64,000 bases of DNA from Sphingobacterium litopenaei (GTDB taxonomy: Bacteria; Bacteroidota; Bacteroidia; Sphingobacteriales; Sphingobacteriaceae): contig NZ_JACOIJ010000007.1 of the NCBI RefSeq assembly GCF_014692495.1, forward strand, positions 1-64,000, in the 5' to 3' direction. How positions within the stretch are numbered: the stretch's first letter is position 1; each line of letters starts with the position of its first letter. The notes beneath the pieces are model-generated. The model had not been told where the DNA came from. It did no database searches and was given only the letters and a program-made list of their open reading frames with translations. The position numbers and the translations under genes were made by a program. Positions 41,194 to 45,552 of this stretch are shown here, piece by piece.

Positions 41194-43074
41194 ATGAACA
41201 TCAAGATGGTTTTTAGGGTAATGTTGTTAGCAATCTGTGGATTGATAATAGCTTGTGGCAGGGATGTTCGTCAAGAAGTCATTCCGATAGAAGATTTTTT
41301 TGATAAGCCAGATCATACCAGTTTCAAAATTTCTCCGGACGGCAAATGGGTAGCTTATCTCGGACTGGAAGATCATTGCAAAAACATCTTTATTTTAAAT
41401 TTGGATCATCCTGATTCCTCCAAACAATTGACTTATCAAAACAGCATGAATGTCCAATATTATTTTTGGGCAACAAAGGATACAATTGTCTTTTCCAATG
41501 CTGAATCTTATCAAGATAGTTTGCGACTATTTACTGTTGATATTCATACTGAAAAAATCAATAAACTTCTAAAGCCTGCAAAACATACAGTAAAATGGTT
41601 AGCTCCTACACGTGCTTTTAATGGTTATCTGTTGGCTCAAATGAATAGAAGAGATTCCACAGCCATTGACTTGTATCGTATTCCATTGAATGGTGATGAG
41701 CCTATTTTGGTGGATAAAAACATCCATAATTTTAATGAATGGTTTGTTTCTTCGGACGGCAAAGTGCGACTGGCTATTTCAAGCGATAGTGTAGAGGATA
41801 AATTATGGTATAGAGAAGAAGAAGGTATGCCTTATCAAAATGTTTTGGAGACAGACTTTTCTTCTATGGTGTATCCACTAGGACCGGTTAAAGATTCAAA
41901 AAACACAATTTATGCTTTGTCAAATAGAGGCAGAGACAAAGTTGCAGTAGTGAATTTGGATTTGAAAAATGGGCAAGAAAAAATTCTGGTAAGTAATAAG
42001 GAAGTAGATCTGAATGGGGAAGGATATTCTTTCACCCGACAGGAAATACTGTTTTCTACCACCTACCGAAAGAAAAAAGAAACCACGGTACATAATGAAG
42101 CCTTAAAAAATATTTATAAGTCCATCGCATCTAAATTTGAGGGATATAGTGTAGATATGATAGATTTAGATAGTTCATTTAATACTGTTTTATTCAGAAC
42201 TTATACAGATAGAAATCCGGGAGGAATATATTATTATCATAAAGGTGAAATCAAAGAATTGACTCCTTTAAATCCTTCTTTGAGAGACAAAACGCTTTCG
42301 CATATGGAGGAAGTATCCTTCAATTCACGTGATGGAAAAAGTATAAAAGGCTATATTACCTATCCGCTAGAGAAAAAAGACAGGTATCCAGTTGTTGTGT
42401 TGGTTCACGATGGCCCTAATCGTCGAGATGTTTGGGGGTTTAATCCAGAAGTTCAATTCTTGGCAAATCGAGGTTATGCTGTCTTTCAGGTAAATTATCG
42501 CGGCTCTACTGGTTTGGGTAAAGAATTTTACGTTTCTGGATTTAAGCAATGGGGTGGCGAGATTCAAAATGACATCAATGATGGTGTCGCGTGGTTGATT
42601 CATACAGGAATTGCTGACAAAGACAGAATCGCTATTATGGGGACGGGGTTTGGTGGATATTCTGCTTTATACGCAGCTTGTTTCAATCCTACTTTGTATA
42701 AGTGTGCGATCTCGGCATCGGGATATATTAATCTATTTACTTATTTTAAAGAGTTTCCTCCATATTACAACTCGTATAAACAACTTTATTATAAAATTAT
42801 CGGGGATCCGCAGAAAGAATATGAACTATTCAAGGCAATATCACCATTATTTCATGCGGATAAAATTCGAATGCCTATTCTGATGTTCCAAGGAGGAAGG
42901 GATCGTTATAATAGTATGACAGATGTAAATTTGTTTGTGCAAAAAGTAAAGAGCAACGATGTGAACCTTCAGTTTGTTTGGAAAGAAGATGAGGGACGAC
43001 GATTCAAAAAAGAAGAGCATATTGTGGAGTTTTATCAAACTATTGAAAACTTCCTGAAAGAACAAATGAGATAA
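41194..43074 (+). CDS. S9 (prolyl oligopeptidase-like) lipoprotein with lost catalytic residues
   Basis: I start at 41194 (MNIKMVFRVMLLAICGLIIAC) because it gives a lipoprotein signal. An N-terminal beta-propeller (SPDGKWVAYLG, then KILV/GGIYY strands) is followed from about residue 395 by an alpha/beta-hydrolase domain (GYITYPLEKKDRYPVVVLVH, VNYRGSTGLGKEF). The nucleophile elbow, normally GxSxGG, reads MGTGFGGYS, with Gly485 in place of Ser. The catalytic Asp570 remains (GGRDRYN), but the His position (normally EGH) reads EGR, Arg602. The enzyme is probably inactive. Its stop overlaps the histidine kinase start in TAATG. Confidence 0.85.
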   Translation: MNIKMVFRVMLLAICGLIIACGRDVRQEVIPIEDFFDKPDHTSFKISPDGKWVAYLGLEDHCKNIFILNLDHPDSSKQLTYQNSMNVQYYFWATKDTIVFSNAESYQDSLRLFTVDIHTEKINKLLKPAKHTVKWLAPTRAFNGYLLAQMNRRDSTAIDLYRIPLNGDEPILVDKNIHNFNEWFVSSDGKVRLAISSDSVEDKLWYREEEGMPYQNVLETDFSSMVYPLGPVKDSKNTIYALSNRGRDKVAVVNLDLKNGQEKILVSNKEVDLNGEGYSFTRQEILFSTTYRKKKETTVHNEALKNIYKSIASKFEGYSVDMIDLDSSFNTVLFRTYTDRNPGGIYYYHKGEIKELTPLNPSLRDKTLSHMEEVSFNSRDGKSIKGYITYPLEKKDRYPVVVLVHDGPNRRDVWGFNPEVQFLANRGYAVFQVNYRGSTGLGKEFYVSGFKQWGGEIQNDINDGVAWLIHTGIADKDRIAIMGTGFGGYSALYAACFNPTLYKCAISASGYINLFTYFKEFPPYYNSYKQLYYKIIGDPQKEYELFKAISPLFHADKIRMPILMFQGGRDRYNSMTDVNLFVQKVKSNDVNLQFVWKEDEGRRFKKEEHIVEFYQTIENFLKEQMR

Positions 43075-44750
43075 TGGCTAGAATAGATTCGAGATATAGA
43101 AAAAACTTCGGCTTACTTATAGTCTTTTTGCTTTTCGTAACGTTGTTGTTTGTTATTTCAGTATTCTTTGCTCGAACGATTACCACCAATTTTGTACAAA
43201 CAGATTTCAATAATCGCAAGGCGGAAGTTTTTGATGAGACGATAAGTGACTTTAATGAATTTTTTCAAGAAAAAATTCCAGAGGTGGCGTATTATCAAGG
43301 TTTTATGGATTCTGTGCAAGCAAAAGATTTTTCTAATGCTATTCTTCGTAAGTATCCTTTCGTTCAGAAAATTGATTTTTCGGATATTTTATTTACGAAT
43401 ATTGATTCTATCGAACGCCAGATGCGTATTGGAAACTTTGGTGCTTCGGCAAAATCAAGTTTTGAATACAAACTAACTAAAGATTTCAAACTTCAAAGTT
43501 CACGTCAATCTAGTGAAGGGGATTTATCTTCGAACGAAGAGTTGTACAGTGTATTCTTAAAGCTGTGCACCTTTTTGGGGCGTGAAAATATCGATACGAG
43601 TCGAATCTCGAATACTGAAGTATATAAGCTTTTTTATAATATTCAACCGGGGAAAATTTCGTATATGAATATTCCGCGGATGTCAGATATATTGTCATTT
43701 CGAAAAATGATGGTAGATGCAAATTATCAGAAATCGAGTTATGAACAAGACTTCTATGTTTTCTACATTACTCCTACTAAAATTCAGATTAAAAATAAAT
43801 ATCCAAATCTCTACGAAAAGATCAGTATTTTGCCCGTCGTAGATCAATATTCGATAAATGAACAGGCTTATCTACGCACTGAAATAGCATTGCCAGGAGC
43901 TTTGTCGGATTATAAATTGCAGCTTGAAACTTCGCAAAGTCACATCACCAAAGAAATAAACAAGTGGTTTTTCCCTGTGGTGGGAATTTTGGTTTTGATA
44001 TATTTGATTTTATTATTGATTGGTTATTTGATTTATCGTAATGTGTTGATAAATAATCGTATGTTTCAATTGCAATATGATTTTATAAATAACTTGACAC
44101 ACGAATTCAAAACACCGGTAAGCGTAATAAAAATTGCCGGAAATAATATCAAAAGTGCAGAGCAGATTAGTGATGCCGAAAGAGCGATGTACGGCCGTAT
44201 ATTAGATCAAGAAGCGGACAAGCTAAATAGCTTAATGAATAAATTGCTTTCTTTTGCACAAATTGAAAATAAATCTATAAAATTCAACGGAGAGTTTATA
44301 GATTTAAAAGAGTTTTGTCAGCATATATTCGAGTCTACTCGTATTAAATATCCAGATTTGGAGCTTGTAGATCATGTAGACGTAAAAGACGAAATATATG
44401 CCGATCCAGTGTTGCTGAACAGTGTTTTTCAAAATCTAATTGATAATGCATATAAATATTCGAGCCCATCAAAGAGGTTTTTGGAAATAAAAGTCGAACA
44501 AACTAAGAAAAATTTTGTTATTTTATTCAAAGATCGCGGCATAGGTATAGATAAGAAAGAATTTAATAGTATTTTTAAGAAATTCTATCGCGTCAAAAAC
44601 CAATTTAACCAACAAGGTAGTATAGGTTTAGGTTTAGCATTTTGTAAGGAAATCACCGAATTTATGGGTGGTGAAATTAAGGTAGAAAGCGAAATAAATA
44701 TAGGTACATCATTTACATTGATCTTTCCTATAGAAGTAAAAAATGTATAA
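43074..44750 (+). CDS. Membrane sensor histidine kinase
   Basis: The 558-residue protein has membrane helices at about 12-33 and 299-322 flanking an extracytoplasmic domain of about 265 residues with no recognised motif. The kinase core has H box NLTHEFKTPVSVIKIAG (His343), N box NLIDNAYKY, G boxes DRGIGID and GSIGLGLAFCKEI, all intact. It overlaps the S9-fold lipoprotein gene by one base and is followed 7 bases later by an OmpR-type regulator. The three genes form one unit, and the lipoprotein is a candidate for an input component. Confidence 0.92.
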   Translation: MARIDSRYRKNFGLLIVFLLFVTLLFVISVFFARTITTNFVQTDFNNRKAEVFDETISDFNEFFQEKIPEVAYYQGFMDSVQAKDFSNAILRKYPFVQKIDFSDILFTNIDSIERQMRIGNFGASAKSSFEYKLTKDFKLQSSRQSSEGDLSSNEELYSVFLKLCTFLGRENIDTSRISNTEVYKLFYNIQPGKISYMNIPRMSDILSFRKMMVDANYQKSSYEQDFYVFYITPTKIQIKNKYPNLYEKISILPVVDQYSINEQAYLRTEIALPGALSDYKLQLETSQSHITKEINKWFFPVVGILVLIYLILLLIGYLIYRNVLINNRMFQLQYDFINNLTHEFKTPVSVIKIAGNNIKSAEQISDAERAMYGRILDQEADKLNSLMNKLLSFAQIENKSIKFNGEFIDLKEFCQHIFESTRIKYPDLELVDHVDVKDEIYADPVLLNSVFQNLIDNAYKYSSPSKRFLEIKVEQTKKNFVILFKDRGIGIDKKEFNSIFKKFYRVKNQFNQQGSIGLGLAFCKEITEFMGGEIKVESEINIGTSFTLIFPIEVKNV

Positions 44751-44757
44751 ATTATAT

Positions 44758-45453
44758 ATGGATAGAGATATAACAATTGCTGTCATAGAGGATGATGAAA
44801 ATTTACGTTTTTTGATTAGTCATCGTTTACAGACAGAGCGATATAAAGTAGTTCAGTCAGGTAATGGTGTGGAAGCCGAAGAGTTGATACTGTCTGTACA
44901 GCCAGATATTGTTCTTTTGGACTGGATGTTGCCCGGAAAGGAAGGAATTGATGTGTGTCAATCCGTTCGCAAGCAAGGCTTTGAAAACATTATTATCATG
45001 ATGACAGCAAAGTCCCAAGATGTGGACAAAATAGATGCTTATAGTCATGGTATTACTGATTACATCACTAAGCCATTCAATATGGATGTGCTGGTAGCTA
45101 TGATTGATAATAAGGTGCGTTTCTTTGTGCCAAAGAGTGCGAACAAAGACGTTTATTTCTTTGGAAATACTGAGCATCACCCACAAATCCATTCTTTAAT
45201 CCGCGATGGGAAAAAAATTGAGTTGACAATCTTAGAAAATCGTATTTTGTTGCATTTCTTGCAAAATATGGGCAAAGAAATTACACGTGAGGAATTAATG
45301 GAGGTCGTATGGGGATACAGCTCAAACGTCAATACCCGTACATTAGATATGCACGTAGTTCGTTTGCGTAAAAAGATCGAAAGTAACCCAGATAAGCCAT
45401 CTTATTTACAAACTGTACGCGGTCTAGGGTACAAATTTGTGGATGAGGAATAG
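44758..45453 (+). CDS. OmpR-family response regulator
   Basis: I start at 44758 (MDRDITIAVIEDDENLRF); a Met at 44743 would overlap the kinase gene and add five residues. The receiver domain has the acidic pair EDDE, phosphoacceptor Asp55 in VLLDWMLPG, the Thr in IIMMTAKSQD and the Lys in ITKPFNMD. The C-terminal winged helix (about 130-230) has LTILENRILLHFL, ELMEVVWGY and the terminal VRGLGYKF. It is the cognate regulator of the upstream kinase. Target promoters are unknown. Confidence 0.94.
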   Translation: MDRDITIAVIEDDENLRFLISHRLQTERYKVVQSGNGVEAEELILSVQPDIVLLDWMLPGKEGIDVCQSVRKQGFENIIIMMTAKSQDVDKIDAYSHGITDYITKPFNMDVLVAMIDNKVRFFVPKSANKDVYFFGNTEHHPQIHSLIRDGKKIELTILENRILLHFLQNMGKEITREELMEVVWGYSSNVNTRTLDMHVVRLRKKIESNPDKPSYLQTVRGLGYKFVDEE

Positions 45454-45508
45454 ATATTGAATTATTTGGAAGTTTAATTTATTTAATATATCTTCGTGTA
45501 GAACGATG

Positions 45509-45552
45509 AACAAGACCATTCTCTCTATGAGCGAATGGTCTTGTTTATTTTT
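45509..45552 (+). terminator. Intrinsic terminator of the S9-fold/kinase/regulator operon
   Basis: The perfect 12-bp stem AACAAGACCATT/AATGGTCTTGTT (45509-45520 and 45534-45545) is followed by a T-rich run. Confidence 0.88.

Follow-up and report, generated by a model that had tools for sequence, protein, structure and literature searches.

An S9 peptidase-fold lipoprotein with a broken catalytic triad is a probable accessory protein of the histidine kinase encoded in its operon across Sphingobacteriaceae

The window analyzed here is a stretch of 64,000 nucleotides from Sphingobacterium litopenaei (contig NZ_JACOIJ010000007.1, positions 1 to 64,000); the closest named relatives of the source genome are S. 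cavernae, S. bovisgrunnientis and S. composti. The locus of interest encodes an S9-fold lipoprotein (P0001), a membrane histidine kinase and a response regulator on the forward strand, with the following features:

41194–43074, + strand: P0001, S9-fold lipoprotein of 626 aa (ATG at 41194, stop ending at 43074), with a signal peptide carrying lipobox Cys21, a beta-propeller (about residues 28–375) and an alpha/beta-hydrolase domain (about residues 376–626)
41254–41256, + strand: C21 of the lipobox IIAC; Cys present in 141 of 141 kinase-linked orthologs
42646–42648, + strand: Gly485 (codon GGG) at the catalytic Ser position, within MGTGFGGYS
42901–42903, + strand: Asp570, the kept catalytic Asp, within GGRDRY
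42997–42999, + strand: Arg602 (codon CGA) at the catalytic His position, within EDEGRRF
43072–43076, + strand: TAATG overlap of the P0001 stop and the kinase start
43074–44750, + strand: membrane histidine kinase of 558 aa, phospho-acceptor His343 and ATP-binding motifs intact
43173–43967, + strand: predicted periplasmic sensor region of the kinase (about residues 34–298)
44743–45453, + strand: OmpR/PhoB-type response regulator, likely true start at ATG 44758
45508–45546, + strand: intrinsic terminator hairpin followed by a T run (−28.4 kcal/mol, z = −7.5)

The overlap of the lipoprotein and kinase genes, the OmpR-type regulator behind them and the terminator closing the unit, all described in a first-pass annotation of this DNA, were confirmed by the sequence. 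HisKA, HATPase, receiver and winged-helix domains were found, and both phosphorylation residues of a two-component system (His343 and Asp60) are present. The regulator has two in-frame ATGs at its 5' end (44743–44760). Since the alignment with most homologues begins no earlier than residue 5 or 6, translation probably starts at ATG 44758, a few bases past the kinase stop, rather than at 44743. Assignment of the regulator as RprY (NF051850) was rejected, as it scored 121.8 bits against a curated cut-off of 370; another locus of the genome scored 297. A search with the Bacteroidota-type promoter pattern found no site at the operon, and sigma-70 sites occurred there no more often than in shuffles. 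The sensor region of the kinase gave no significant match in Pfam or to PDB sequences, and among 198 genomes sampled across the phylum, the sensor half was confined to Sphingobacteriaceae. For the weak AlphaFold model of the kinase, the best fold match was a WalK-YycH model, which says nothing on the accessory protein; YycH and YycI are unrelated to P0001.

P0001 belongs to peptidase family S9 by sequence and by fold (PF00326, E 9.5e-39 in a Pfam domain search), and its best solved relative by both measures is the cold-adapted acylaminoacyl peptidase 5l8s. The AlphaFold models rested on shallow alignments and had low confidence (pLDDT 63 and 70); they served only to confirm the fold class. Alignment to 5l8s and to 33 active relatives placed G485 and R602 in the catalytic Ser and His columns, in agreement with the earlier claim that both residues are replaced while Asp570 survives. 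The ordered Ser-Asp-His triad is therefore absent from P0001 (G485, D570, R602). On this evidence, P0001 is a non-peptidase homologue of family S9. It scored 95 bits with the Dpp5 dipeptidyl-peptidase model NF053518, below the curated cut-off of 900 bits. A rescue by a nearby Ser or His, raised earlier as a possibility, found no support across relatives: active relatives also hold Ser490 (of GGYS) beside their own catalytic Ser, and nearly all relatives, whether active or not, have Asn where P0001 has His609 (of EEH).

The operon is family-wide. The S9 protein is carried by 140 of 151 Sphingobacteriaceae genomes, and for most of these 140 the loci were inspected. In all loci read that hold a true ortholog, this gene is followed immediately, on its own strand, by the same kinase gene; the gap is typically about 6 bp, the two genes often overlap, and the regulator is next wherever the inspected locus reaches that far. 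The kinase-linked S9 proteins form one clade (support 100), and in the loci read none of its members occurs apart from the kinase. S9 relatives elsewhere in the phylum and paralogs within Sphingobacteriaceae do not adjoin this kinase, and only about one quarter of these unlinked relatives have a lipobox Cys, versus all of the kinase-linked proteins. A lipoprotein encoded in the kinase operon, as in systems of the QseEGF kind, is thus found throughout the family, and the proposed locking of P0001 to its kinase is strongly supported.

Genus g11 keeps the kinase and the regulator, and its S9 gene is gone (L175–L179: G033, G060, G010, G049 and G070). Since g11 nests beside genus g24, which has an intact S9 copy, in the kinase tree (support 100), this absence is a loss, and the kinase can thus outlive its S9 partner. 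At the g11 loci, an opposite-strand gene lies upstream of the kinase in place of the S9 gene. In one single-contig genome of the same genus as the window (L119, G137:C1:2827056-2828923), the S9 frame is broken, with its two halves in separate overlapping pieces, and the downstream kinase is present. A further locus, L162 of genus g85, holds an intact-triad S9 relative with a different regulator-kinase pair about 0.7 kb downstream and is not the same system.

Among 141 scored kinase-linked orthologs, Ser and His were both kept in 33 and one or both were missing in 108, while Asp570 was nearly always kept. The full triad was kept in 33 of 33 sampled S9 relatives not adjoining this kinase. A clade sharing the Gly and Arg substitutions together with the kinase linkage, as predicted earlier, does exist: Gly485 with Arg or Lys602 was found in all 36 scored proteins of Sphingobacterium and genus g4, i.e., the triad loss in the lineage of P0001 is common to both genera. 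In these orthologs, Arg/Lys602 could possibly form a salt bridge with the retained Asp570. In dead clades outside Sphingobacterium and g4, residue 602 is Thr, Tyr, Ala, Phe, Ser or Asn. Three proteins of genus g15 (L111, L194 and L196) have Ser485 but no His and are nested among Gly-bearing relatives; their Ser485 looks like one-step Gly/Ser drift after catalysis had been lost.

Intact triads in the same operon, named by the first-pass annotation as grounds against its reading, do occur, namely in the 33 orthologs with Ser and His. They do not make P0001 active. Rather, the operon predates the catalytic loss, and the loss recurred. In an S9 tree rooted with active relatives and built without the catalytic columns, parsimony gave the ancestor of the kinase-linked clade a triad and placed at least 10–13 independent losses within the clade. 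Losses of an intact Ser/His pair numbered 13–14 on the best tree and at least 10–11 after branches with support under 90–95 were collapsed. Unlinked branches, with 14.3 substitutions per site in total, showed no loss, versus about 18 expected at the linked rate, and comparison of independent pairs showed that Ser and His tend to be lost together (sign test, median p 0.03). Catalysis has thus been lost repeatedly and, in this sample, only within the kinase-linked clade. Since intact triads occur in the same operon, the partnership is older than the catalytic loss.

Purifying selection acts on the dead copies as strongly as on the live ones. The dN/dS ratio was 0.013–0.065 for dead copies (10 within-genus pairs) and 0.045–0.083 for live copies (7 pairs), from pairs with unsaturated dS; long-distance values were saturated and were not used, and the pairs of P0001 itself were saturated at synonymous sites, so that this evidence rests on its relatives. 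The S9 frames were full length in nearly all dead-copy genomes across large divergences. In a position-by-position comparison, only positions 485 and 602 were conserved in all live and unlinked proteins yet lost in dead ones, a contrast that arises partly by construction, since the same positions define the dead set; the next best position scored 0.58 versus 1.0, and no other strongly conserved position was lost. The low dN/dS, the full-length frames and the restriction of the loss to catalytic positions therefore argue for a retained non-catalytic role. Sequence evolution thus strongly supports the view that the dead S9 protein is kept for a role other than serine-protease catalysis, and with the recurrent loss it bears out the earlier proposal of function without catalysis.

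Pairwise distances of the S9 propeller and the kinase sensor region correlated with 0.785, which exceeds the correlation of either with the kinase core or with MltG, an unlinked periplasmic protein. After removal of kinase-core and MltG distances, the partial correlation was 0.53 (5–95% range 0.46–0.60). This tracking supports co-evolution of propeller and sensor region, the comparison genes being slower-evolving than these domains.

P0001 is probably an operon-locked pseudo-peptidase that serves as an extracytoplasmic accessory protein, i.e., a co-sensor, of the adjoining histidine kinase. We infer the S9-kinase contact, the ligand and the direction of control as follows. An active S9 lipoprotein would have joined the kinase operon in the ancestor and was probably bifunctional, with a second, non-catalytic role already present. 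In that role, the propeller would probably have been the part in contact with the sensor region of the kinase, and the triad would therefore have been dispensable. Kinase activity would be set by the S9 protein, whose old pocket may hold a peptide or another ligand, and the kinase would then phosphorylate the OmpR-type regulator. Extended to the whole family, this describes an S9 peptidase lipoprotein that became a kinase co-sensor, was released from catalysis and was reduced to a pure pseudo-enzyme receptor in at least ten parallel events, so that the sensor now exists in matched live and dead forms; we consider this wider history evenly poised between right and wrong.

A dead but maintained envelope protein, be it a scaffold, chaperone or peptide binder, could instead sit in the operon for regulator control or for reasons of expression and exert no control over the kinase. 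Operon membership is indeed no proof of contact, and the kinase and regulator of g11 persist without the S9 protein. However, the tight first-in-operon position is kept across Sphingobacteriaceae, the loci read contain no member of the clade separated from the kinase, and the S9 distances follow those of the sensor region more closely than species distance explains, which makes this explanation unlikely. It is most improbable that the protein is simply no longer needed, with catalysis lost and the frame about to erode: the whole-gene loss in g11 and the broken frame in G137 would fit such decay, but three findings count against it: nearly all dead copies, even widely diverged ones, still have a full-length frame, their dN/dS is as low as that of live copies, and the loss singles out no positions other than the two catalytic ones.

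The dead copies keep the elbow glycines, Asp570, His405 and the NxRGS motif, which would fit a protein that is still an enzyme and relies on a different nucleophile, or on chemistry other than hydrolysis, within the old pocket. Yet His405 and NxRGS are common to active relatives and so do not mark a new active site, the replacements at residue 602 vary widely outside the Sphingobacterium/g4 clade, and the independence of the losses makes a shared new chemistry unlikely; another enzymatic mechanism is accordingly quite improbable. The co-sensor reading of P0001 is hence preferred.

The S9-kinase finding is real and broader than the genome of P0001, i.e., family-wide, and no report of this system was found in the literature searched. 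Studies of how an enzyme turns into a pure signaling protein usually have just one or two losses to draw on. The S9 operon supplies natural variants by the dozen, live, half-dead and fully dead, each with the same partner, and this series allows a direct test of whether catalysis ever mattered to the signal. In addition, a role is suggested for an unstudied sensor kinase of Sphingobacteriaceae, and caution is advised since many proteins of this family likely named 'S9 peptidase' cannot be serine peptidases.

The system belongs with known kinds, i.e., pseudo-S9 partner proteins and two-component systems with accessory lipoproteins, and is notable for its parallel losses. 5l8s differs from P0001 as an S9 enzyme of active type with its catalytic residues in place. 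We know of no kinase link for 5l8s. WalK is a kinase tuned by the accessory envelope proteins YycH and YycI, in another phylum than the S9 operon (PMC7355866). In Clostridioides difficile, the subtilisin-like pseudoproteases CspC and CspA have been implicated as receptors of germinants (PMC6464247); they resemble P0001 as bacterial dead proteases with a proposed sensing role but differ in having another fold, a protease partner and no kinase.

DPP6 and DPP10 are inactive S9B proteins that act as auxiliary subunits of Kv4 channels; the nucleophile Ser is replaced by Gly in DPP10 and by Asp in DPP6, and DPP10 keeps the His (PMC4350108, PMC4873792). P0001 likewise retains the S9 fold with the Ser replaced, and would, like them, partner a membrane signaling protein. 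The fly DPP10 ortholog is an active peptidase as well as a channel subunit, while mammalian DPP10 is a subunit only (PMC4873792, PMC4350108), and this double role matches the bifunctional ancestor proposed for the S9-kinase system. In contrast to P0001, which is without both Ser and His, DPP6 and DPP10 are eukaryotic S9B proteins with an ion-channel partner, and only in the S9-kinase system did the loss recur at least ten times. QseG is an operon-encoded outer-membrane lipoprotein that binds and activates the histidine kinase QseE (QseG-QseE-QseF, PMC12691602). There, as in the S9 operon, lipoprotein, kinase and regulator occur together, which provides a functional model for the proposed mechanism; however, QseG is from another phylum and is not described in PMC12691602 as peptidase-fold, and its contact has been shown, whereas for P0001 we infer it. 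The S9 lipoprotein is most likely an accessory sensor of its kinase, as QseG is for QseE, with a history resembling that of DPP10.
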